From a virus, in the IMG/VR virus record IMGVR_UViG_3300042988_000862, positions 1-42,790 of that record: a stretch of DNA of 42,790 nucleotides. The stretch is one strand, 5' to 3'. Both the position numbers and the translations under genes were made by a program. Shown one piece after another: positions 2,720-30,498 of this stretch (positions within the stretch are counted from its first letter, which is position 1; each line of letters begins with the position of its first letter). The notes beneath the pieces were generated by a model. That model saw nothing but the letters and a program-made list of their open reading frames with translations, had not been told where the DNA came from and searched no databases.

Positions 2720-2837
2720 GTTAAGCGTTCATTAAAATATCTAACAAAAAAACAAATCGTGTAGGGTGTGCCAAGGCTTCTTGACCTTCATGGTCGTGAA
2801 CGCTTAACACTTGGCGCATCCGCACGGTTTTATTTTT
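2720..2837 (+). ncRNA. Pseudoknotted leader RNA ending in a terminator-like stem
   Basis: Two interleaved helices are visible. Helix A: 2720-2731 pairs perfectly (12 bp) with 2797-2808. Helix B: 2764-2775 pairs with 2810-2821 over 12 bp including two G-U pairs, and extends by CGTG 2758-2761 with CACG 2823-2826. A small hairpin GACC/GGTC lies at 2783-2795. Helix B is preceded by an A-rich tract and followed by TTTTATTTTT (2828-2837), like an intrinsic terminator. The G-U pairs and the match between the promoter start and helix A argue for function as RNA. It lies 15 nt before the replication initiator gene, so it could be a riboswitch-like attenuator or a free small RNA. I do not recognise a known family. 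Confidence 0.6.
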
Positions 2838-2852
2838 CAAAGGCGGTTTGTT

Positions 2853-3635
2853 ATGGGTAAGAGATTTACTGCAACCGAAAAATGGGAAGACCCGTGGTAT
2901 AGGAAACTACCACCTGCCTATAAAGCTATATGGTCGTTCCTATGCGAGAAGTGCGACAACGCAGGATTCTGGAAGGTAGACCTCGACCTCGCCGCTTTTC
3001 AGGTCGGGTGCAAGTTCAATAAAGAAGATGTCTTTAATGCGTTCAATAAAGAAAAAATCCGTGTTATTGAACACGCAGAGTTCTGGCATCTGCCGGACTT
3101 CATTCCGTTCCAGTACGGGAAGCTGTCTTTAACGTGCAATCCACATATTCGCATTATAGACACTCTTAAAGAACGGGGCTTCTGGGATGACAATCAAGGG
3201 TACTTCAAGGGTACCTATGTTACCCTTGTGGAAGAGGATAAGGATAAGGATAAGGATAAGGATAAGGATAAGGATAAAGAAGTGGAAGATAATAATATAT
3301 CTATTAAGAAGAGAAAACCGTCTTCCGCTCCATCGGCTATAATTGTTGACGGAATGAAAAAGATTTATGAAGAAAAAACAGGTAAACCATTTAACGCGCC
3401 TAAACACTATTTTCTAAAAATAGATAGTCTTATAAAAACACATGGGTTCGATGCGGTAAAAGATAAAGCCGTGATAATGGCTGAATTGTGCGAGCATAAG
3501 TCGGCGTGGTTTACCAAAGAAGGGTGGTCATGTTATCTACCAACAAAAATAGGACAGTTCTGGAATGAGATTGTTCCTAAAGACGATTTAAGGGGTTCGT
3601 TACGAGAATGGGCGAAAAAGGAGGGCGTATGTTAG
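2853..3635 (+). CDS. Phage replication initiator / replisome organiser-like protein
   Basis: 260 residues from ATG 2853, which follows AAGGCGG. The frame is open back to TTG 2811, but that would run through the leader RNA and has no ribosome site. Residues 1-100 (EKWEDPWYRKLPPAYKAIW..., CDNAGFWKVD) look like the winged-helix N-terminus of phage replisome organisers. A seven-fold Asp-Lys linker follows, then a helical C-terminal domain rich in aromatic residues. Such proteins bind the phage origin and recruit helicase through the C-terminal part. The next gene looks like the helicase loader, which supports the assignment. The promoter and structured leader RNA sit directly upstream. Confidence 0.65.
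   Translation: MGKRFTATEKWEDPWYRKLPPAYKAIWSFLCEKCDNAGFWKVDLDLAAFQVGCKFNKEDVFNAFNKEKIRVIEHAEFWHLPDFIPFQYGKLSLTCNPHIRIIDTLKERGFWDDNQGYFKGTYVTLVEEDKDKDKDKDKDKDKEVEDNNISIKKRKPSSAPSAIIVDGMKKIYEEKTGKPFNAPKHYFLKIDSLIKTHGFDAVKDKAVIMAELCEHKSAWFTKEGWSCYLPTKIGQFWNEIVPKDDLRGSLREWAKKEGVC
3236..3277 (+). repeat. Hexanucleotide tandem repeat GGATAA x7 (Asp-Lys linker)
   Basis: Seven perfect copies of GGATAA encode seven Asp-Lys pairs between the two domains of the replication protein. The 6-bp unit keeps the reading frame if copies are gained or lost, so linker length can vary without breaking the gene. Confidence 0.95.
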
Positions 3636-4459: not shown

Positions 4460-5383
4460 ATGTCAGAAGTAATCAAAGCGTATAAGGGGTTTGATAAGGA
4501 TTTTAAGTGTAAAGGGATGCAGTATGAAGTGGGAAAAACATATGAAGAACCAGAAGCTAAATGTTGTGAAAAAGGACTTCATTCCTGTTTAAACACATTA
4601 GACGTACTATCGTATTACGATGTATGCTCATCAGAGTTTGCCGAAGTGGAGGCATCGGGTAAAATAGACAAAGCAACAGATGATACAAAAATAGCGTCGA
4701 CAAAATTAAAGGTTGTTGCGAAGCTATCACTTAAAAGTTTAATAGACGCATCGATAAAGTTTATTTTTGAATCATGCAAAGCCGATAAAACGGACTACAG
4801 CCAGAATGCCAGCTCTGGGGACTACAGCAAGAACGCATCGAGTGGGCACAACAGCAGGAACGCATCGAGCGGGGACAACAGCCAGAACGCATCGAGCGGG
4901 GACTACAGCAGGAACGCATCGAGCGGGGACAACAGCCAGAACGCATCGAGCGGGGACTACAGCAAGAACGCATCGAGCGGGCACAACAGCAAGAACGTAT
5001 CGAGTGGGGACAACAGCAAGAACGTATCGAGCGGGTACAACAGCAAGAACGTATCGAGCGGGTACTACAGCCAGAACGCATCGAGCGGGGACAACAGCAA
5101 GAACGCATCGAGCGGGGACAACAGCAGGAACGCATCGAGCGGGGACTACAGCAAGAACGCCATGACTGGTAAAAACTCTGTATCGGTTGACGCAGGAATA
5201 AATGGACAGGCAAAAGGAATTATCGGGTGTTGGTTTTGTTTGTCTGAGTGGAAGCAAAACAAAGAAAATATTTATGTTCCAGTATGTGTAAAAGCCGTAA
5301 AGGTAGACGGAAAGAAAATCAAAGCGGATACATGGTACACGCTTGAAAATGGTAAGTTTATAGAGGTTAAGAAGGCATTATGA
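4460..5383 (+). CDS. DUF7666-like protein with nonapeptide repeats
   Basis: 307 residues. The N-terminal 110 residues (AYKGFDKDFKCKGMQYEVGK..., CEKGLHSC, DVLSYYD) match the DUF7666 pattern. Residues 112-237 are 14 nonapeptides of the form [DHY][YN]S[QKR]N[AV]SSG. The C-terminus (AKGIIGCWFCLSEW, IKADTWYTLENGKF) is also typical of this family. The repeats are rich in Ser, Gly and Asn and probably form a stacked beta structure (inference). No signal peptide is present, so it is cytoplasmic. The role of DUF7666 is unknown to me. Own consensus promoter and strong ribosome site; the stop overlaps the next ATG. Confidence 0.75.
   Translation: MSEVIKAYKGFDKDFKCKGMQYEVGKTYEEPEAKCCEKGLHSCLNTLDVLSYYDVCSSEFAEVEASGKIDKATDDTKIASTKLKVVAKLSLKSLIDASIKFIFESCKADKTDYSQNASSGDYSKNASSGHNSRNASSGDNSQNASSGDYSRNASSGDNSQNASSGDYSKNASSGHNSKNVSSGDNSKNVSSGYNSKNVSSGYYSQNASSGDNSKNASSGDNSRNASSGDYSKNAMTGKNSVSVDAGINGQAKGIIGCWFCLSEWKQNKENIYVPVCVKAVKVDGKKIKADTWYTLENGKFIEVKKAL
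4793..5170 (+). repeat. 27-bp coding tandem repeat, 14 units
   Basis: Fourteen 27-bp units lie in frame inside the DUF7666-like gene; the first and last are the most diverged. Differences between inner units fall at codon 1 (GAC/CAC/TAC), codon 2 (TAC/AAC), codon 4 (CAG/AAG/AGG) and codon 6 (GCA/GTA). Only AGC/AGT in two units is silent. The GC-rich array keeps other frames open too; those frames are not genes. Confidence 0.95.
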
Positions 5384-5595
5384 AAAGCGGGTTGAAGGAT
5401 TCGATTGAAGATATTTTATGTAAGTCTAACTGTCCAGATTCGTACTTTTCTGGCTACAAATGCACTCACAAATTATGCGGAATAAAAAAACAAGCCAACA
5501 AAATCTACCGCTTTTTCTACTGTTATGTCAGAAGCAAACACGTCACAAAGAATATCAGACGCTTCGATTATCTCAAAAACGGTGAGGTGAGATGA
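5380..5595 (+). CDS. Small Cys-rich basic protein
   Basis: 71 residues with five cysteines in the first half (CKSNC, CTHKLC) and one more in the FFYCYVR segment, a possible zinc site. The C-terminus is strongly basic. It begins in an ATGA overlap with the DUF7666-like gene and ends in an overlap with the next small gene, so it is part of that operon. Function is not recognised. Confidence 0.55.
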   Translation: MKSGLKDSIEDILCKSNCPDSYFSGYKCTHKLCGIKKQANKIYRFFYCYVRSKHVTKNIRRFDYLKNGEVR

Positions 5596-5762
5596 TGAAA
5601 CAGAAAAAGAAAGACTTGATATCCGAGCTTAAGCGTATTATGGCTATTGCCGAACGTACGTCAGATGCTCCAGATAAATTATATCAAACAGCATATAATC
5701 TTGGTGCAATGCGTGGGTCGATATACGGGCTTATATGTGCTATAGAAGCAGGGAAATATTAA
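5592..5762 (+). CDS. Small helical protein
   Basis: 56 residues starting MMKQKKKDLISELKRIMAI. It is predicted helical by its heptad-like spacing of Leu/Ile/Ala, and ends GLICAIEAGKY. The ATG overlaps the stop of the upstream gene and a GAGGTGAG ribosome site precedes it. No family recognised. Confidence 0.55.
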   Translation: MMKQKKKDLISELKRIMAIAERTSDAPDKLYQTAYNLGAMRGSIYGLICAIEAGKY

Positions 5763-5779
5763 GCAAAAGAGGTGAAACC

Positions 5780-6427
5780 ATGACACGAGATACACTAAAG
5801 CATGAAATCGACTGCATTATATCGGGAACAGACTATAGCGGTGGATGTGACCCAGATGCTGATTTGGATAAAATCCTCGCCCTCATCGACACCTACCACT
5901 CGGCGAATGGGTTGAAGGCGTTGGATGCTGGTGAATTGTTTAAATTCATGGTTCGTAATGGTTCATGTGCCTCAATAGAATCAGCCCAATCCATCTGCGC
6001 CCAATTCGGTGCGCCCGTTGTGCCGAGTGTTGATGATATACAGACAGAACTTTGTACTTGGTTGCCTGAAAGTAGTCGTTTCAAAGATTGTGTTGATTGC
6101 AGTGAGCAAGAGAGAGATTGCGCAAGAAATGCTAGAGCAATCCACGCTCTTCTCACTCGAGGTGCGCCGAAGGACAAAGACCCTATGGGGTTTAAAACAA
6201 ACGGTGATGGTGCGCCTGCCTACAAACAGCCAGAAGAGAAGAAGGATGTTTGTGAGGATATAAAACCAGAAACACTTAAAGCTCTGCAAAAGAATGGGGT
6301 CACACTTGTCGGTTCACTTGCCAAAGAAGAGAAGAAGGAAGAGCCAGTGTGCGAGAACCATGAATGGTCAACGTCAACAGGTGAATGTATAAATTGCGGA
6401 CGAAAAATCGTAGTTAAAACAAAATAA
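5780..6427 (+). CDS. Hypothetical protein with C-terminal zinc ribbon
   Basis: 215 residues from ATG 5780 after AGAGGTGA; an in-frame ATG at 5735 lies inside the previous gene and lacks a ribosome site. The last 30 residues hold a likely zinc ribbon (CENH...CINCG). The middle contains CVDCSEQERDC and a low-complexity Lys/Glu linker. Codon use and GC content are somewhat higher than in the neighbours. No family is recognised; it sits between two repeat-protein genes. Confidence 0.6.
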   Translation: MTRDTLKHEIDCIISGTDYSGGCDPDADLDKILALIDTYHSANGLKALDAGELFKFMVRNGSCASIESAQSICAQFGAPVVPSVDDIQTELCTWLPESSRFKDCVDCSEQERDCARNARAIHALLTRGAPKDKDPMGFKTNGDGAPAYKQPEEKKDVCEDIKPETLKALQKNGVTLVGSLAKEEKKEEPVCENHEWSTSTGECINCGRKIVVKTK

Positions 6428-6440
6428 ACAGGAGGATTGT

Positions 6441-7106
6441 ATGTCAGTATCAAATTCGGATGGCGTGAACTGGTCGAATAGCGTGAACGGGTCGAATAGC
6501 GTGAACGGGTCGAATAGCGTGAACTGGTCGAATGGCGTGAACTGGTCGAATGGCGTGAACGGGTCGGATGGCGTGAACAGGTCGGATGGCGTGAACTGGT
6601 CGTATGGCGTGAACAGGTCGGATGGCGTGAACGGGTCGAATGGCGTGAACGGGTCGAATGGCGTGAACTGGTCGTATGGCGTGAACAGGTCGGATGGCGT
6701 ATCAAAAGCTATATTCTTATCAAACAAAAAATCAACTCCTACATTATTCGGGAAAGATATTTCAGATGAACGATTCGAAGAAGTCTTTGCAAAAATAAAA
6801 GAGTTGGTCGGTAACTGGAAACCAACATTCAACAACGCTTTTAAGCTATATGATGCAAACGGCAAAGAATGGAAAAAAGTTGATGCGTCACAGATAGTAA
6901 GCACACCAGAAGCTGGGGCGTGGCTCGATATGCCGATTGAAGCAGTTAAGTATATCCAGTCATTGCCTGAATACGATGCTGATATTTTCTTTGAGATTAC
7001 TGGCATCAAAGAAACAACGAAAAAAGAGACAATCAAAATCGGTGACTACGAGTTTTACAAAGAGGATGTTGAGAAGCGTTTAAACGGTTTAAATCCGATA
7101 GTTTAA
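6441..7106 (+). CDS. Hexapeptide-repeat protein
   Basis: 221 residues. After nine residues come 13 hexapeptides of the form N[GWR]S[NDY][SG]V (residues 10-87). A globular C-terminal domain follows (LFGKDISDERFEEVFAKI, WKPTFNNAFKLY, AWLDMPIEAVKYIQSLPEYDAD). I have seen this combination of 'N-G-V' repeats and this C-terminal domain in other phage proteins of unknown function, but know no named family. There is no signal peptide, so it is cytoplasmic or virion-associated. A strong AGGAGG lies 5 nt before the ATG. The repeats could form a narrow beta-solenoid with variable side chains on one face (inference). Confidence 0.65.
   Translation: MSVSNSDGVNWSNSVNGSNSVNGSNSVNWSNGVNWSNGVNGSDGVNRSDGVNWSYGVNRSDGVNGSNGVNGSNGVNWSYGVNRSDGVSKAIFLSNKKSTPTLFGKDISDERFEEVFAKIKELVGNWKPTFNNAFKLYDANGKEWKKVDASQIVSTPEAGAWLDMPIEAVKYIQSLPEYDADIFFEITGIKETTKKETIKIGDYEFYKEDVEKRLNGLNPIV
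6468..6701 (+). repeat. 18-bp coding tandem repeat, 13 units
   Basis: Thirteen 18-bp units encode N[GWR]S[NDY][SG]V. Variation is limited to the first base of codons 2 (G/T/A), 4 (A/G/T) and 5 (A/G). The only silent difference is GTA in the last unit. Confidence 0.95.
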
Positions 7107-7134
7107 AAATCGTTGTTAACGGGGAGAATGTAAA

Positions 7135-7224
7135 ATGAAAAGGATGTTGATAAAAAAAAGAAAGCTCGATTTAGTTGTTGACAAACTCATCGCCGCGCTA
7201 AAAACTGAACGAGGTGTCAAGTGA
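7135..7224 (+). CDS. 29-residue basic peptide
   Basis: A short ORF starting MKRMLIKKRKLDLVVDKLI after a GGGGAG ribosome site. Its stop overlaps the GTG start of the next gene (GTGA), the same coupling used throughout this operon. It is amphipathic and Lys-rich. Length makes the call uncertain. Confidence 0.4.
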   Translation: MKRMLIKKRKLDLVVDKLIAALKTERGVK

Positions 7225-7487
7225 AAGGACTTGAAGAACTCAATGACACAGACCGCAAGATGATTGAAAAACAAATTGACGAACTCGACAAAGAGAAAGC
7301 TGATTTTCTAGCCTCAATCCACGTGGACGAAAACCAGTTTAGACACTGGTTTGTTAAGACGATGTACGAAAGAATATCATTGAAAACATACGCATCATCT
7401 TTTATACGCCAATGGGTTTTTGGTGAACGTGATGCTTCGGCGCAGGCACTTAAAACAATGTATGATTTTATCAAGGAGGTCAAATGA
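7221..7487 (+). CDS. Hypothetical helical protein
   Basis: 88 residues starting with GTG at 7221, overlapping the stop of the small ORF before it. The first 30 residues are charged and heptad-like (coiled coil). The remainder has aromatic residues (HWFVKTMYERI, IRQWVFGE). The stop overlaps the next ATG. No family recognised. Confidence 0.6.
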   Translation: MKGLEELNDTDRKMIEKQIDELDKEKADFLASIHVDENQFRHWFVKTMYERISLKTYASSFIRQWVFGERDASAQALKTMYDFIKEVK

Positions 7488-7666
7488 AAGACTTTGCGGT
7501 GTGTTCAGGGGTAGCGCAGTGGTCTTCAGTGTGTCCAAGACGCACGGGCTGTAAACGGCATAGAATGTATATGCTGTGCAAGCACCAAGATAATATAAAT
7601 CAAAACCATGTAATGCCAGCGTTCAAAGGAAAAACGTGCGTAAACTTTGTGGAGGTGGAGAAATGA
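7484..7666 (+). CDS. Small Cys-rich protein
   Basis: 60 residues with five cysteines (VCSG, VCPRRTGC, LCKH, TCVN), suggesting a metal site. It starts in an ATGA overlap after AAGGAGG and ends in another ATGA overlap. Function is not recognised. Confidence 0.6.
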   Translation: MKDFAVCSGVAQWSSVCPRRTGCKRHRMYMLCKHQDNINQNHVMPAFKGKTCVNFVEVEK

Positions 7667-7965
7667 TTACAAAATCTAAGTTCAAAAATCCCGACAAGTT
7701 CATATCTCACTTAAAAGCTGACCTTGAATACGCACGAAGTCGGGTAAGGTCGCTGTCTAATCAGCTTGGAAATTATTGGTTTGGGTTTTCTAAAAACCGG
7801 ACGATATGCCCAGTACTCAACATCGGGTATTATGAACATATCACAATAGGGACTCGTATCGCTATAACTGCCGAGGTTACAGGGCTGGTCAAAAACGATG
7901 ACGGCACAGTGACGTGTACGCTTTCTTTAAAAGAAGCGAGAAACATAATCAAGGAGTCCAAATGA
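7663..7965 (+). CDS. Hypothetical protein with beta-rich C-terminus
   Basis: 100 residues from ATG 7663 (ATGA overlap; GGAGGTGGAG upstream). An in-frame ATG at 7636 lies within the previous gene. The N-terminus is helical and basic; the C-terminus (TRIAITAEVTGLVKNDDGTVTCTL) reads as a small beta barrel. Function is not recognised. Confidence 0.6.
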   Translation: MITKSKFKNPDKFISHLKADLEYARSRVRSLSNQLGNYWFGFSKNRTICPVLNIGYYEHITIGTRIAITAEVTGLVKNDDGTVTCTLSLKEARNIIKESK

Positions 7966-8171
7966 ACCCAATACTTTTCTGGTACATCGTGGGGTGCGTG
8001 GTGGCGTTGATTCAACAATTGAACTTAGTGTATCTGCGAGGAAAATATAATTACTCTGTTTTTGAAACGTCACTTGCAACAACAGTTTTTAGTTGGGTCG
8101 GTCTTATTATCGCACTGGACAGCTACATCACATTAGTAAATCTCTGGCGGCGAAATAAGAAGGGGGAGTAG
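7962..8171 (+). CDS. Small two-helix membrane protein
   Basis: 69 residues from ATG 7962 (AAGGAG upstream, ATGA overlap). Two hydrophobic segments, residues about 3-25 and 38-61, are joined by a polar loop; the tail is basic (RRNKKG), which favours a cytoplasmic C-terminus. It is followed two bases later by a lipoprotein gene. A role in holin function or superinfection exclusion is possible but not shown. Confidence 0.6.
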   Translation: MNPILFWYIVGCVVALIQQLNLVYLRGKYNYSVFETSLATTVFSWVGLIIALDSYITLVNLWRRNKKGE

Positions 8172-8173
8172 GG

Positions 8174-8326
8174 ATGGGTAAACTATTAATTATATTATGC
8201 GTGTTATTGTGTGGGTGTGCATCGAATAAACAATATCCATACGAATGTTACCATTATGGTCAAGGGACTTTAGTAGAAACGACTCGGTGTATTCCGTGTG
8301 ACAAAAGCAATAAATGTGATTGGTAA
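8174..8326 (+). CDS. Small lipoprotein
   Basis: 50 residues, too short for most gene callers. The N-terminus MGKLLIILCVLLCGC is a lipoprotein signal with the lipobox LCGC, so Cys15 would be lipidated. The mature part is 36 residues with four Cys that could form disulfides. GGGGAGTAGGG lies upstream. It pairs with the membrane-protein gene before it. Small phage lipoproteins often block superinfection or act as spanins. It is not proline-rich like Rz1, so exclusion is the better guess (inference). Confidence 0.65.
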   Translation: MGKLLIILCVLLCGCASNKQYPYECYHYGQGTLVETTRCIPCDKSNKCDW

Positions 8327-8331
8327 AAATT

Positions 8332-8802
8332 ATGAATAATTCTATTTTTGAATGTCCGATATTTTTAATATTACAACGAAAGACTAAGCCTCCAAAGAAA
8401 TATTGGATAAATAAAAACCAAGAACATAACTGGCATCCGTTCGTATACAACGCATTGAAAGTAGAGTTCTGTCGTGTAATGGATAAAGCATATCCGATAG
8501 TCGGTAAGATACAGACACCGATTATGGTCAATTACGTTGTCCACTATGGCAGAAAATGCGATTTTGATGTAAACAATATATCATCAATCGTTGACAAGTT
8601 TTTTATGGATTGGCTCGTAACACGTGGTGCGATAGAAGATGATTGTATGCGTTTTGTCCATGGTGGTTCGTATTATTGGGGTGGATATGAAAAGGATGTA
8701 TTCAAATGTACTGCATCGGTACAGACCGTAGCACCATTGCCAGAATCACAAAACAAGCCTTTAACGCCACGCAAAGCATTAAAACAAGGCAATATAGCCT
8801 GA
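8332..8802 (+). CDS. rusA-like: RusA-like Holliday junction resolvase
   Basis: 156 residues from ATG 8332. The stretch CDFDVNNISSIVDKFFMDWL...GAIEDD carries the RusA pattern: Asp77, Asp79, Asp93 and the Asp103-Asp104 pair, with spacing like the metal-binding aspartates of E. coli RusA. RusA-family enzymes cut four-way junctions made during recombination and replication, clearing branched DNA before packaging. The C-terminal 25 residues are a basic tail. The start has no clear Shine-Dalgarno; coupling to the lipoprotein gene 5 nt upstream may help. Confidence 0.72.
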   Translation: MNNSIFECPIFLILQRKTKPPKKYWINKNQEHNWHPFVYNALKVEFCRVMDKAYPIVGKIQTPIMVNYVVHYGRKCDFDVNNISSIVDKFFMDWLVTRGAIEDDCMRFVHGGSYYWGGYEKDVFKCTASVQTVAPLPESQNKPLTPRKALKQGNIA

Positions 8803-8852
8803 ACGTGTATTTATAGCTTAAATCGTGTTTGTTGATATATTAAAGATAATTA

Positions 8853-8881
8853 TTGACAATTAAACAATGTTACTGTATTAT
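8853..8881 (+). promoter_or_regulatory. Sigma-70 promoter
   Basis: TTGACA 8853-8858, a 17-bp spacer, TATTAT 8876-8881, in a 104-bp AT-rich gap. It serves the repeat-protein gene starting at 8907. Confidence 0.85.
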
Positions 8882-8906
8882 TGAAACATAAACAAAGGCG
8901 GTATGT

Positions 8907-10361
8907 ATGAAAAAAATTGTAAGAACTTCTACTAGTGCTAAAGGTGGAATTACAGAAGAAGAAAAAAAAAAGATGGATAAGATAACTGAAAAATGGATAA
9001 CTAATGCGTACAAAACAGGACGTACCGATAAAAAGGCTTGCGTTGAAGCTATTGAAAGATTATACGAAGTTTCTGGTTTAAAAAAACCAAGAGTTATTAT
9101 TGTACCATCTCCTTTAGTAATGTCAATTACATACGGATTGAGTGCAGGTATATGGTTTTTAAGAAAAACTCGTGACGCAACTGATGACGCAACTGATGAC
9201 GCAACTCGTGCCGCAACTGATGCCGCAACTGATGCCGCAACTAGTGCCGCAATTGATGCCGCAACTTATGCCGCAACTCGTGCCGCAACTTATGCCGCAA
9301 CTTATGACGCAACTCGTGCCGCAACTTATGCCGCAACTTATGACGCAACTGATGACGCAACTGATGACGCAACTCGTGCCGCAACTGATGCCGCAACTGA
9401 TGCCGCAACTGATGCCGCAACTCGTGCCGCAATTGATGCCGCAACTTATGCCGCAACTTATGACGCAACTGATGACGCAACTCGTGCCGCAACTGATGCC
9501 GCAATTGATGCCGCAACTTATGCCGCAACTCGTGCCGCAACTGATGACGCAACTAATGCCGCAACTTATGACGCAACTGATGACGCAACTCGTGCCGCAA
9601 CTGATGCCGCAATTGATGCCGCAACTGATGACGCAACTCGTGCCGCAACTTATGATTTTAAATGGTTATATTATTTAGCAAAGAAGTTTGGAGGTAAAAA
9701 TTATAAACTACTTATATCCTGCATAAATAGATGGGCAAATGTAAGACAATGGGGAAATATGTGGTCTTCATATCCAGCTTATGCTGAGGCATACAGAGAT
9801 GTATTAAAACTTTCTGGTTTAAAATGTTGGAATAAATGGTCTGCATATGAAGATTGTGCAAAACTTGGTGGTTATAGAGTTATGCACGAAGAATTTTGCA
9901 TTGTAAGCGATTTTCCTGATGTAATAAAAATTGATTCTCAAAATAGAGCACACTGTGAAGATGGGGCTTCACATAGATGGTCAGATGGGTTTGAGATATA
10001 TTCATGGCATGGTATCAAGGTAAATAAAAAAATAATATGTACACCAGAACTTTTGACTATTGAAGAAATACAATCAGAAAAAAATATTGAAGTGCAACGT
10101 GTAATGATAGAACGTTTTGGAGTTGAAAAGTACCTTGAAAAAATCGATTGTGATGTTATTGATACAGATATGCGTGGAATTGAAGGAGGTGGCGCACGTT
10201 GTTTGCTTAGAGAAAATAACGGTAATCAATGGTTAGTATGTACAGATGGAAGCACTGAACGAGTTTACCATCTATCAGCACCTAAAGAATCTAAGACGTG
10301 TAAAGAAGCGCATGAGGCATTATCTGGATTCGCAGAATCAAAAATTAAAATGGAGGGATGA
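8907..10361 (+). CDS. DUF6745-like protein with 40 tetrapeptide repeats
   Basis: 484 residues. The N-terminal 88 residues end in a 'VIIVPSP' strand. Residues 89-248 are 40 tetrapeptides [DRYSN][AD]A[TI]. The C-terminal part (EFCIVSDFPDVIKIDSQNR, HCEDGASHRWSDG, YSWHGIKV, NIEVQRVMIERFG) matches DUF6745, whose role is unknown to me. In known DUF6745 proteins the N-terminal and C-terminal parts are adjacent, so the Ala/Thr-rich array looks like an insertion that has expanded. No signal peptide. It has its own strong promoter and AAAGGCGG. The next gene shares its operon. Confidence 0.72.
   Translation: MKKIVRTSTSAKGGITEEEKKKMDKITEKWITNAYKTGRTDKKACVEAIERLYEVSGLKKPRVIIVPSPLVMSITYGLSAGIWFLRKTRDATDDATDDATRAATDAATDAATSAAIDAATYAATRAATYAATYDATRAATYAATYDATDDATDDATRAATDAATDAATDAATRAAIDAATYAATYDATDDATRAATDAAIDAATYAATRAATDDATNAATYDATDDATRAATDAAIDAATDDATRAATYDFKWLYYLAKKFGGKNYKLLISCINRWANVRQWGNMWSSYPAYAEAYRDVLKLSGLKCWNKWSAYEDCAKLGGYRVMHEEFCIVSDFPDVIKIDSQNRAHCEDGASHRWSDGFEIYSWHGIKVNKKIICTPELLTIEEIQSEKNIEVQRVMIERFGVEKYLEKIDCDVIDTDMRGIEGGGARCLLRENNGNQWLVCTDGSTERVYHLSAPKESKTCKEAHEALSGFAESKIKMEG
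9171..9650 (+). repeat. 12-bp coding tandem repeat, 40 units
   Basis: Forty units of the form NNTG[AC]CGCAA[CT]T. Codon 1 is GAT, CGT, TAT, AGT or AAT; codon 2 GAC or GCC; codon 3 always GCA; codon 4 ACT or ATT. I found no silent difference in all 40 units. Blocks of several units recur (for example units 2-6 and 16-20), which points to segmental duplication. Confidence 0.97.
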
Positions 10362-11072: not shown

Positions 11073-11984
11073 ATGGCGTTAAAAGGGGTCAAACCAGAGA
11101 AAAAAGAGAAACGGCTGAAGATGTTCGTGTACGGTCCAGCCGGAATTGGAAAGACTACTGCTGCAATCCAATTCCCAAACTCGTATGTAGTGGACACGGA
11201 AAAGGGTACTGATTTTTACAGTGAAACAATCAATAAATCAAGTTCAGCGGTATTTCAATCAGCTAATCCAGATGATATATACGCTGAAATCAGGGAGTTG
11301 CTTACAACAAAACATCAGTATAAGACATTGATTATTGACCCGATTACTCATGTCTATAACGCAACACAAGAGAAATGGACACGTATTTTCGAGAAGAACT
11401 CAAAGACTTCAAAAGATTCTGATATTCAGGATTTTGGTATGCGTTATTGGAGCAAAATCAAAGGTGAGTTTAAGGGTCTTGAACGGCTGATACTCGCCCT
11501 TGATATGAATGTTATCTGTACAGCACACCAGAAAGACGTATACGGTTCAAACTTCTCAAAATTAGGTGTCACGTTTGACAGTATGCGTGGCGATGATTAC
11601 CTGTTTGACCTGATATTCAGGATTGAAAAACGAGGGACTGACCGTATCGCAATCTGCGAGAAAGAACGTGCGGATATGGGAAAACAAAAGTTTCCAGCTG
11701 AGTTTATATGGTCATATGAAAACTTCTGCAAATATTATGGACGTGAAATAATCGAGAAGGAAAGTGTTCCTGTAGTGTTAGCATCACCTGAACAAGTTGA
11801 CACTATTCAGAAGCTTATATCGGCGTTAAATGTCGATGAAGCGACAATAACAAAATGGTTTGTTAAAGCGGATGTAGAGAAGTTCTCAGAAATGAATGGT
11901 GATACAATACAGAAATGTATCGACGTTCTTAACAAAAAGATTGATGAACTTAAAAACACGGATTCTAAAAAGGAGGTTAAATAA
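11073..11984 (+). CDS. AAA_24 / Sak4-like RecA-fold ATPase
   Basis: 303 residues. Walker A is GPAGIGKTT at 21-29; VVDTEKGT follows; Walker B is LIIDP at 86-90; ICTAHQ (sensor-like) comes later. This is the pattern of the phage AAA_24 family, which includes Sak4 single-strand annealing proteins. Such proteins help repair and recombine replicating phage DNA and usually sit beside an SSB-like gene, as here: the DUF669-like gene starts with a 1-nt overlap. The C-terminal 60 residues (EQVDTIQKLISALNVD...) look like a helical add-on. ATG 11073 follows AAAGGTAGG. Confidence 0.72.
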   Translation: MALKGVKPEKKEKRLKMFVYGPAGIGKTTAAIQFPNSYVVDTEKGTDFYSETINKSSSAVFQSANPDDIYAEIRELLTTKHQYKTLIIDPITHVYNATQEKWTRIFEKNSKTSKDSDIQDFGMRYWSKIKGEFKGLERLILALDMNVICTAHQKDVYGSNFSKLGVTFDSMRGDDYLFDLIFRIEKRGTDRIAICEKERADMGKQKFPAEFIWSYENFCKYYGREIIEKESVPVVLASPEQVDTIQKLISALNVDEATITKWFVKADVEKFSEMNGDTIQKCIDVLNKKIDELKNTDSKKEVK

Positions 11985-12466
11985 TGAAACTCAAGCGTAA
12001 TATGAAAAATGTGGATGAGGGTGAGGCTGGTTCTGACAAGTTTACGATTAGCGTAGGACAGCATGAATTTATTATTTCTGAGATTCAGGAATTGTACACG
12101 AAAAATGGTGACCCGATGTTTAACATCAAGCTAATATGCAATAAAGGAGATAAAGACGCTGGTAAATGGTGTTTCGATAAAATCGTTATACCAGAAGAAA
12201 ATAGTTCGGCTATTAAGATTATGGGACGGTCAAAACATTTTCTGCATTGTATCGGTGAACCGTATGACAATGACGGACTGGATATTGATAGTGACCGATG
12301 GTTAAACAAGAAAGTTGTTGCTGAAACTGAAATTGAAGCACCGAACGAATACCATCCAAAGTTTCCAGTAACAAAAATCACAAACTATGTTCTTGTTGAA
12401 GGGCTTAACTCTATACCTGATGCAAGCATGGAACAATCAGCGTCACCTATTGAAGAACCATTTTAA
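11984..12466 (+). CDS. DUF669-like ssDNA-binding protein
   Basis: 160 residues. GQHEFIISEIQEL, DPMFNIKLIC, and DRWLNKKVVAETEIE form the strands expected of the DUF669/SSB-like OB fold that accompanies phage recombinases. The tail is acidic and ends with Phe (EEPF), as in many SSB proteins, where the tip recruits partners. It starts inside the stop of the ATPase gene (TAATG), so both are made together. Confidence 0.6.
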   Translation: MKLKRNMKNVDEGEAGSDKFTISVGQHEFIISEIQELYTKNGDPMFNIKLICNKGDKDAGKWCFDKIVIPEENSSAIKIMGRSKHFLHCIGEPYDNDGLDIDSDRWLNKKVVAETEIEAPNEYHPKFPVTKITNYVLVEGLNSIPDASMEQSASPIEEPF

Positions 12467-13824: not shown

Positions 13825-14778
13825 TTAACGTGTTGCGTATCGTTTCCTACGTTCAATTTCTCTCTGTTTCGCTATCGCACGTTGTGCCATTGTCATACCA
13901 ACACCTAATCCTGCAACACCTGCGGACATAGCTGGCGTGGTGAAGGATTTTTGACCTGTCTTCCCATGCGCCTCGTTCCAAATGTCGGTGAGTTGGGTAT
14001 CTGTAACCTTATTCATTTTTCTATCAGGCTTATATAATAGCTCATACGATACTGGATTTTTTGGATTGCTTATATCGACTTCGTCAGGATATTCAGTTAC
14101 CAAATTTTTGAGCTTAGTTTTTATTGAAACAACTTTACTTGGAGAATCGGTATAAGCCAACGCATCATTATAATCCGTTGTTACAAAATCACCGTTTTTT
14201 ATTCCTTTACCAGATACACTTTTTGAATCTATGCCACGATAAACCGTTATTGTTGATTCAGGGTCTAATCCTTTAATATCTCCAACGAAAACACTTTGCG
14301 GTTTTACATAATTTCTCAACTTTGGACTATACTCACCATATTGAGTTGAACTACCTCGCATCTTAGAAAGAAACCTGTCTAAAGTATCGTGTTTTTTTGC
14401 TTCGCTTAAAAGTGTAGCTTTTTGTGGCTCTGAAAAAGAATCTATACTTCTATCAAGTTCTTTTAATTTTGCATCAGCATTTTTTTGTTTAATTAAGTTT
14501 GCGTTTTCTTTTACCACTGACATTTTGGTGTCAATATCTTCAAGCTCTTTCAATAAAGATTGTCTTTCCTTAAATGAGCTGTACGATTGTTCATTTTTAA
14601 AAGTTCCCGTTTTTTTATCAAACCCATCATTTACCATTGGAGTAATTTCATCAATCCTTTTTGTAATATAGTTCCTTTTCTCGTTCAAGGCTTCTGACTT
14701 CAATTCAGGCGTGATATTTGATGACTGTTTACCAACGCCTTGTGGTGGAACAGCCTCACCTTTTTTTTGGCACACCAA
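13825..14778 (-). CDS. Putative ADP-ribosyltransferase-domain virion protein
   Basis: Up to 317 residues. Residues about 20-140 are coiled-coil helices. Residues 176-250 show the pattern TVYRG (Arg181) then GDFVTTDYNDALAY (196-209) then VSIKTKL, like ADP-ribosyltransferase domains in phage polyvalent virion proteins, with Glu229 or Glu246 as a possible catalytic acid. The C-terminus has a Gly/Ala hydrophobic stretch and a basic tail. The only upstream start is TTG at 14778, with no good ribosome site. The frame joins the preceding 733-residue protein across an A8 run, so it may be made as a fusion. Catalysis is not proven. Confidence 0.5.
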   Translation of the reverse strand: MVCQKKGEAVPPQGVGKQSSNITPELKSEALNEKRNYITKRIDEITPMVNDGFDKKTGTFKNEQSYSSFKERQSLLKELEDIDTKMSVVKENANLIKQKNADAKLKELDRSIDSFSEPQKATLLSEAKKHDTLDRFLSKMRGSSTQYGEYSPKLRNYVKPQSVFVGDIKGLDPESTITVYRGIDSKSVSGKGIKNGDFVTTDYNDALAYTDSPSKVVSIKTKLKNLVTEYPDEVDISNPKNPVSYELLYKPDRKMNKVTDTQLTDIWNEAHGKTGQKSFTTPAMSAGVAGLGVGMTMAQRAIAKQREIERRKRYATR

Positions 14779-28896: not shown

Positions 28897-29324
28897 TGAG
28901 TTACCACCTTCATACTTAACGCTGTAGTTGAATCATTAGTAGCACCACCGACAACATGAAACCGTCCGTATGGCATTATCTCTTTATCAACATCTTCAAC
29001 GTGTGCATTTTCGTCTGTAACGGCAGTTAGCGTATCAGTTGTTGCCCACAATGAATCTACAGCACCCTCAGTTGTTGGTTTTGTGTATGATTGTTCAAAG
29101 TATATCGTCACTGCTACTGTACCGTCAGAAGATGCTTTATAAAACGCTGAAACATATTCTGCGTTAGCCATAGGAAAACTTTTAGTATATACAGAAGCTG
29201 CGCTTGCTACAGCAATCGTATTTGACCCAACTGATGTCTGGATAGGAACAACACCCATACTTGCTGCAATCGCTACACTACACACTAAACCCATACATAC
29301 CGCTACTAGACATTTACGTACCAT
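28893..29324 (-). CDS. Exported beta-rich protein
   Basis: 143 residues with signal peptide MVRKCLVAVCMGLVCSVAIA. The mature part is beta-rich (SVYTKSFPMANAEYVSAFYK, GTVAVTIYFEQSY), a pattern seen in small phage surface or fibre proteins. AGGAGG precedes the ATG, and the gene overlaps the O-antigen ligase-like gene by 11 nt, so they are co-expressed. Confidence 0.55.
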   Translation of the reverse strand: MVRKCLVAVCMGLVCSVAIAASMGVVPIQTSVGSNTIAVASAASVYTKSFPMANAEYVSAFYKASSDGTVAVTIYFEQSYTKPTTEGAVDSLWATTDTLTAVTDENAHVEDVDKEIMPYGRFHVVGGATNDSTTALSMKVVTQ

Positions 29325-30498
29325 GTTGACCTCCTGATTCTGCTAAGCCAATAAAAAACAGTGTATAAAATATATGTGCCCCAAGATGCCACGAGTACAC
29401 CCCGAATGCACCGACCATTGACGCTATTAGACTTGAATATACAAACGCTGAATATTCAGTAAACCTGTGTTTTCTAAATAATGACACAAACGCCATTACT
29501 AACAACAAAAACCCTATAATACCTATCTCATATAACAACTCAAAATATTCTCCATCAGCATGAAGCATCTTTGCGATATTTTCACCTTTATATTTATTGT
29601 GGTACATAACAGGAAATGAACCTATACCGTTGCCTGTCATCGGATATGCTTTTTTTATACCTTCAAGTGGTGATGTATTTAAATCTTTGACTATATTAGT
29701 CCATGTACTAAATCTTGCGCCATCACCAACAAAATACCTTACTTTATCATACTTGAAGTACGCAAATACCGACAATACAGCTATTATAACGCCTGTCAAT
29801 ACGCACCAAACAAGCCGTTTTTTCGACGTTAGGGCATAATAAGCTAGCACACAGCACACTAATGCACAAATACTCATCTGCGACACTGTAAGACATATTG
29901 AGAAAGCTATTAAAGCAAGATGTACATACTTTCTACGATATATCGCTGAAGGTATCGCCATCGCTAAAAATGTACCGACAAACAAAGGATGCCCAAGCGT
30001 TCCACCACAAGCACCATTTGGTACGCTACCATAAAACGGTACTACTTTAAAGAACTGGTCATACCCTAAGAACTGTATTATTATGTATGCGCTTATAACT
30101 GAGGCTGTGAATATTATGACATCAAGCAATGGTCTTACGCATCCATCTTTTCGTAAAAAAGCTATATCTCCATACTTCTGTCCTATGACCGAAACTAAAA
30201 ACATAACAGATGTAAACACGCACAATGCGCTAATCCATAACCATGGTGTATAAAACGGTATTCCGTACAATACAATTGTCAACTTCGGAGCACAAAAGAT
30301 ATTTATTGCTAGATACGCTAACAATATCAATAACCATTTATTTCGTATTTTCCCTAGAGTTCCTGAGTAACACGCTGTTAGGAATAGAGCTATTGAGAAC
30401 ACCACAGCAAGTATCAACTTCAGCGTTTGAGCGTCTGCCGTAGCGACAAAAAACAATGGTATTATCGCAAGCCCTATTCCTAACAACGTTTTATACAT
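29314..30498 (-). CDS. O-antigen ligase / Wzy-like membrane protein
   Basis: 394 residues with about 10-11 membrane helices. A large periplasmic-type loop near residues 265-335 (GDGARFSTWTNIVKDL, MTGNGIGSFPVMYH, MLHADGEYFELLYEIGIIG) matches the Wzy_C/O-antigen ligase pattern (PF04932), as does GTLGHPLFVGTFLAMAIP earlier. The family joins or polymerises lipid-linked sugar chains onto lipid A core, or, as PglL-type enzymes, onto exported proteins. It lies between two genes for Sec-exported proteins inside the tail cluster. It could change the host surface during infection or glycosylate the exported tail proteins (inference). Confidence 0.72.
   Translation of the reverse strand: MYKTLLGIGLAIIPLFFVATADAQTLKLILAVVFSIALFLTACYSGTLGKIRNKWLLILLAYLAINIFCAPKLTIVLYGIPFYTPWLWISALCVFTSVMFLVSVIGQKYGDIAFLRKDGCVRPLLDVIIFTASVISAYIIIQFLGYDQFFKVVPFYGSVPNGACGGTLGHPLFVGTFLAMAIPSAIYRRKYVHLALIAFSICLTVSQMSICALVCCVLAYYALTSKKRLVWCVLTGVIIAVLSVFAYFKYDKVRYFVGDGARFSTWTNIVKDLNTSPLEGIKKAYPMTGNGIGSFPVMYHNKYKGENIAKMLHADGEYFELLYEIGIIGFLLLVMAFVSLFRKHRFTEYSAFVYSSLIASMVGAFGVYSWHLGAHIFYTLFFIGLAESGGQHGT

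Follow-up and report, generated by a model that had tools for sequence, protein, structure and literature searches.

Three genes within 6 kb of a 42.8-kb virus record (IMG/VR IMGVR_UViG_3300042988_000862, analysed over all 42,790 nucleotides and called the window below) carry in-frame tandem arrays of 27-, 18- and 12-bp units that are reshuffled rapidly between static flanks, and whose residue variety appears to be kept by selection. Genes 1–3 add further examples, on different scaffolds, to a behaviour so far known from a single phage protein, gp54 of phage Tweety. We give roughly even chances to the reading that the three arrays are diversity-selected, recombination-shuffled recognition modules in accessory early phage proteins, which would serve as tunable counter-defence or exclusion factors.

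Three arrays with fixed variable codons

Tandem Repeats Finder (TRF) placed arrays at 4817-5160, 6456-6700 and 9176-9654, with scores of 548, 364 and 629 (unit counts and motifs are in Table 1). Reading frames were set by the DUF7666 domain in gene 1, the DUF6745 domain in gene 3 and homologues of the C-terminal domain of gene 2. In array 1 the variable codons are GAC/CAC/TAC, TAC/AAC, AAG/CAG/AGG and GCA/GTA, and the silent changes consist of AGT for AGC in two units, together with a degenerate first unit. This array has the form usual in the DUF7666 family, nine residues with fixed variable columns after Gly. Array 2 varies by AAT/GAT/TAT, GGC/AGC and GGG/TGG/AGG, with zero silent changes in complete units and a GTG to GTA change confined to the incomplete final unit. 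Array 3 varies by ACT/ATT, GAT/TAT/CGT/AAT/AGT and GCC/GAC, and units 1–39 are without silent change while unit 40 has one (GAC to GAT).

The sequence-only reading had described three unrelated proteins in which nearly all unit-to-unit differences fall at fixed positions and change the residue, with no silent difference in the 40 units of array 3. The codon tables uphold the general pattern, whereas the count of zero is off by one edge unit and the word unrelated holds only in part, since the C-terminal domain of gene 2 is fused behind a DUF7666 domain in another contig (L029). The fewest codon steps per column come to 6, 5 and 6 residue-changing and 5, 0 and 1 silent steps for arrays 1, 2 and 3. 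Because units are copied from one another, 40 identical silent sites are not 40 independent tests, and about 17 residue-changing steps in the window alone are weak evidence. Relatives were therefore collected, and the statistical weight rests on them.

Residues vary within arrays and silent sites rarely do

For the count of silent steps, one array was taken from each cluster of similar units. Across the 55 independent 9-residue (DUF7666) arrays we counted 205 residue-changing steps and 25 silent ones, against an expectation of about 67 silent (P ~3e-11), and 41 of the 55 arrays were without any silent step. Among 15 independent 4-residue arrays there were 73 residue-changing and 13 silent steps for about 22 expected silent ones (P ~0.017), 8 of the 13 coming from one degenerate array (L141). 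Silent cells in constant columns numbered 34/2258 and 5/1522. Between 9-residue arrays, same-residue codon pairs differ silently in 70% of comparisons; constraint at the DNA level is thus not the cause of the deficit, and silent sites are homogenised within each array.

In the arrays of P. aeruginosa phages, within-array heterozygosity was 0.72 for the variable residue pair versus 0.10 for a silent marker of the same unit, and between-array differentiation was 0.06 versus 0.61. The residue pair was mixed in 14/14 tested arrays and the silent marker fixed in 10/14, a test of 14 arrays with one marker that may track lineage.

Neutral tandem-repeat drift, in which young, recently expanded arrays have had too little time for silent change, is in keeping with real block duplications in some arrays (L132, L296). 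However, the longest repeated block is in most cases about that of shuffled arrays, residue variety is high where silent variety is low, and a neutral simulation with equal rates, set to the residue variety actually seen, gave silent variety of 50-60%, which together make drift highly improbable. In a steady-state simulation, variable sites needed an effective change rate hundreds of times the silent-site rate; this ratio assumes recurrent mutation, which the codon data disfavour, and was used solely to reject neutrality. Selection for residue variety, proposed in the sequence-only reading, is supported by silent changes far below expectation, by evenly mixed residues and by a similar alphabet across scaffolds.

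Arrays differ between near-identical flanks

A comparison of close relatives had been proposed together with the sequence-only reading, identical arrays being the outcome that would speak against it, and the reverse was found. One contig (L018) is the window phage over 6 kb (99.97% identity, 2 mismatches), and its array 3 is without units 1–14 of the 40, through a deletion that joins two copies of a five-unit block. The start of this contig, about 36 bases ahead of the array, may reflect a mixed population or else an assembly error. Among three M. abscessus-type prophages the coding flanks agree fully (0/984 nt differ), and the arrays, which comprise no more than six DNA unit types, CAGCTC[GCT]GGG[AG]C, are different (45 versus 18 units). 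No two of 17 complete arrays from P. aeruginosa phages are alike, with flanks differing at 0/522 nt between L294 and BR228a and at 3 between FluPA14 and YA3, and these arrays rearrange, in the main, three linked residue pairs, DY, NR and YQ. In the M. smegmatis phages Tweety, Taj, KristaRAM and DeadP, flanks are identical at 549/549 positions around 48, 30, 16 and 38 units, respectively.

These comparisons also bear on a TALE- or PUF-like reader of a nucleic-acid code, which the sequence-only reading had offered as a possibility. Like the window arrays, TALE and PUF proteins consist of repeated units with fixed hypervariable residues, and two adjacent variable residues in each DUF7666 unit, with the linked pairs in P. 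aeruginosa phages, would suit such a code. However, the window units are much shorter and show no homology to TALE or PUF repeats, no Pfam match to either was found among window proteins, and unit order is near random, is not conserved and differs between phages with identical flanks. A fixed code of this kind is not supported by these data, and we regard any nucleic-acid code as having a very slight chance.

Copying of unit types

Sixty arrays hold both GGG and TGG, and 58 of them use AGG only or CGG only for Arg (471 Arg codons). Arg can be reached as AGG or CGG by one transition, yet nearly every array uses one codon, which indicates that unit types are copied. Included in this test, and excluded from the silent-step count, were 65 arrays found by a pattern fixing three units; the pattern bars A as first base of the variable codon in three units and so biases that subset to CGG, and AGG-only arrays are still the majority. 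More than one codon for a variable-column residue was seen in 23/618 cases. Identical neighbouring units were about as frequent as in random order (51 observed versus 48.7, and 126 versus 120.6). Unit types are copied and reshuffled, with blocks lost, gained and exchanged, at a much higher pace than that of point mutation in the flanks.

A dedicated process that mutates the variable codons, similar to a diversity-generating retroelement, would account for the high simulated rate at variable sites. Against this, silent variation at the variable codons is rare, Arg within one array is almost never encoded by both AGG and CGG, and no reverse transcriptase (PF00078) was matched in the window. Templated short-tract conversion may nevertheless occur. 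Random substitution at template adenines, the signature of diversity-generating retroelements, was not seen, as there is one codon per residue per array. Targeted mutagenesis is, in our judgement, quite improbable.

Tweety gp54 and the spacer model

The gp54 array of Tweety, the closest studied case, has 48 units, GCC GCA [GGG/TGG/CAG] [AGC/TAC]. Its invariant third bases were noted in 2007, and selection for variation was proposed then (PMC2884959). Mutants of Tweety that escape the prophage defences of Phrann and MichelleMyBell are reported to have gained or lost gp54 repeats, a change that reportedly tunes counter-defence (reviews PMC9262239, PMC8549241). Tweety gp54 (phrog_3416) resembles array 3 in its 12-bp units, in silent sites that hardly vary and in a unit count that changes while the flanks do not; variation lies at two codons, with few DNA unit types and with third bases invariant in most variants. 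The two differ in their constant residues, AA in gp54 and A[TI] in array 3, and one array gene is described in Tweety where the window has three.

Arrays may instead be linkers tuned in length by gain and loss of units, with variable residues tolerated and not recognised. The reported Tweety escape mutants change the number of units, and the model put forward by the review author is one of juxtaposed protein ends; moreover, DUF6745 proteins without an array have a short linker at the array site. However, such a spacer leaves unexplained the silent deficit at free codons and the even residue mix in all of the tested P. aeruginosa arrays. We consider it unlikely.

Other parallels and the phage-conflict setting

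ES18 gp53 (phrog_4433) is like gene 1 in its N-terminal domain, 9-residue array and type of C-terminal domain, and had no match in E. coli genomes. The model of E. coli YdhT is matched by gene 1 over the array and C-terminal region, but YdhT has another N-terminus and a degenerate array, and occupies a single chromosomal site in almost every E. coli genome; phage DUF7666 arrays, unlike that of YdhT, are homogeneous and shuffled. Chromosomal DUF6745 proteins of actinobacteria share with gene 3 the type of C-terminal domain and often the N-terminal region, but nearly all are without the 4-residue array.

The ES18 gp53 gene lies within the early-left operon, and its SEN22 homologue adjoins a superinfection exclusion gene. 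These neighbourhoods fit phage–phage or phage–host conflict without proving it. They, and the temperate-phage setting, would also suit a self/non-self barcode, in which an array would pair with an identical one in a resident prophage to bring about superinfection exclusion, although to us this appears improbable.

More distant parallels exist. WD-repeat allorecognition genes (hnwd) of Podospora show concerted evolution, diversifying selection at few surface codons and rapid array rearrangement (PMC2873952). They are like the phage arrays in near-identical units, diversity at few codons and fast rearrangement, but they are fungal, with WD40 units in STAND receptors, and show no homology. The VR2 region of bbp36 in Bordetella phage BMP-1 has, as cited in PMC2884959, short repeats whose copy number differs by isolate, in a gene that is not essential; the description given there, of a 24-bp element with spacers, sets it apart from the window arrays.

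Distribution of the array genes

Gene 1 matched PF24703 with E=1.1e-33 (116 bits against a gathering score of 27) and phrog_4433 with E=2.3e-59. Homologues of gene 1 and DUF7666 were found by tblastn in 67 phage records, and at least 587 viral stretches hold DUF7666. An array, nearly always of 9 residues, was present in 67 of the 86 DUF7666 loci read, with mainly Y, D, S, N, Q, R and K as variable residues. Gene 3 matched PF20530 over residues 313-467 with E=6.8e-19 (68.4 bits against a gathering score of 27). Viral DUF6745 proteins mostly have 4-residue arrays with differing constant residues (QV, QL, SV, NL, SSL, AT) and mainly D, G, R, A, W, N and S at variable positions, and 5/55 chromosomal DUF6745 loci have a 4-residue array. 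Homologues of gene 3 without an array, viral ones included, keep both flanks around the short linker.

Gene 2 shares 44% identity over 143 aa with L219. Its C-terminal domain, which has few relatives, stands with 6-residue arrays in L218 and L219, behind the DUF7666 domain in L029, and next to an array of three residues, C[NRYD][AS], instead of six in L220 (612-1226) and L221. Since this domain occurs with several array types, the C-terminal part stays while the array type swaps. Each of the three array types was found again in other viral contigs, and several scaffolds with different periods draw their variable residues from a similar set (D, N, Y, R, W, G, S, Q, K). The DUF6745 viral records tested showed no DUF7666, in a search that gave nothing in control genomes either, so we make no case for co-occurrence of the two domains.

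Several irregularities were seen in the records. Many DUF7666 contigs (L031-L110) stop inside or just past the array, where short-read assemblies seem to break. Pieces of the DUF7666 array at 3369-3586 of L025 are labelled as CRISPR spacers, a misannotation caused by repeats. The DUF7666 array gene has a frameshift in Acinetobacter phage fEg-Aba01 and ambiguous bases at variable codons in fLi-Aba03 (L205; L206). Dulem virus 31 (L217) is filed as Microviridae but has 35.8 kb and a replisome organizer gene, so its classification looks wrong. Further short-period arrays occur in L017 and L021, namely an LSGA[DNY] pentapeptide in a terminase-relative contig and GDC[ST][SG]L[RYS] in the phage with the best DUF7666 match.

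Structure and database searches

AlphaFold2 models (25 and 13 sequences) had good flanks and array confidence of about 30-60, which supports neither a beta-solenoid nor a helix and lends no backing to the solenoid face suggested in the sequence-only reading. A sequence search of solved structures gave no relative, and Foldseek gave no match in the PDB. Against viral models, Foldseek returned DUF7666 proteins, a Rheinheimera phage pentapeptide protein, giant-virus ankyrin proteins and, weakly, RIIB, which we take as leads only. The databases searched hold no function name for genes 1–3, and our literature search found no paper on DUF7666 or DUF6745.

Genome context

The array genes lie in the early module together with genes for DNA recombination functions (Table 1). 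Within the window, seven perfect 6-bp repeats at 3235-3277, in the gene at 2811-3635, encode a DK run and are possibly a second unstable site. The protein encoded at 13825-14778 (− strand) resembles by eye an ADP-ribosyltransferase in its C-terminal half (VYRGI...FVTTD...A), with no Pfam match. An O-antigen ligase-like membrane protein (29314-30498, − strand; PF04932 E=1.6e-13) is encoded among structural genes and is possibly a lysogenic conversion gene.

Table 1. Array genes, arrays and neighbouring features of the window
Feature	Position	Strand	Description and basis
Early module	1 to ~12.5 kb	+	
Gene 1	4460..5383	+	N-terminal DUF7666 (PF24703), 9-residue array, C-terminal domain; phrog_4433, ES18 gp53-like
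Array 1	4793..5143	+	13 units of 27 bp, [DHY][NY]S[KQR]N[AV]SSG; codon table, TRF
Gene 2	6441..7106	+	N-terminal array and C-terminal domain common to L029 and L218-L221
Array 2	6459..6692	+	13 units of 18 bp, [NDY][GS]VN[GWR]S; codon table, TRF
RusA-like Holliday junction resolvase	8320..8802	+	phrog_1682 E=7e-13; context, possible shuffling enzyme
Gene 3	8907..10361	+	N-terminal helical region, 4-residue array, C-terminal DUF6745 (PF20530)
Array 3	9177..9656	+	40 units of 12 bp, A[TI][DYRSN][AD]; codon table
Sak4-like single-strand annealing ATPase	11073..11984	+	phrog_124 E=4.1e-22; PF13479 E=1.2e-20; context
Single-strand DNA binding protein (SSB)	11984..12466	+	phrog_7778 E=9.8e-5, phrog_378 E=1.2e-4; context
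Head, portal and terminase genes		−	

Discussion

According to the reading that we favour, each array consists of a handful of unit types on one DNA backbone, with two to four differing codons. Shuffling may proceed by homologous recombination or annealing between the 12-27 bp repeats, perhaps with help from the Sak4, SSB and RusA genes of the phage, and the mixture of residues would be maintained by selection alone or by exchange with a pool of other arrays. The variable residues may contact a partner protein, and changes in the array would then re-tune which partner is bound. By analogy with Tweety, the partner is most likely a host or prophage defence protein.

Several points weigh against this reading. 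PADLOC gave no credible match for known anti-phage defence proteins, with only a weak SspB match of 14 bits. The published model for Tweety invokes spacing and juxtaposition of the gp54 ends, not contacts of variable residues. In addition, gene 3 has no homology to the N- and C-terminal parts of Tweety gp54 (hhalign probability 0.1%; no phrog_3416 match), so that gene 3 works like gp54 and is not a gp54. Array 1 has several silent changes, the single silent marker in P. aeruginosa phages may follow lineage, and some arrays come from short-read assemblies, in which the order of repeats may be wrong.

More tentatively, and with the odds in our opinion against it, the arrays may represent a general natural device for DNA shuffling, in which short in-frame repeats on several unrelated scaffolds are reassembled at random by recombination. 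A single lineage would in this way sample a combinatorial repertoire of recognition surfaces directed at defences of hosts and prophages, and would need no mutator enzyme. Arrays of 3, 4, 6 and 9 residues would then belong to one functional class, with Tweety gp54 as the sole tested member found.

If the recognition reading is true, a large group of unannotated phage repeat genes, with DUF7666 in hundreds of viral contigs, would be tunable recognition modules. The breaking of short-read assemblies in array genes is a warning for work on such genes. The single odd case of Tweety gp54 would thereby become a class.

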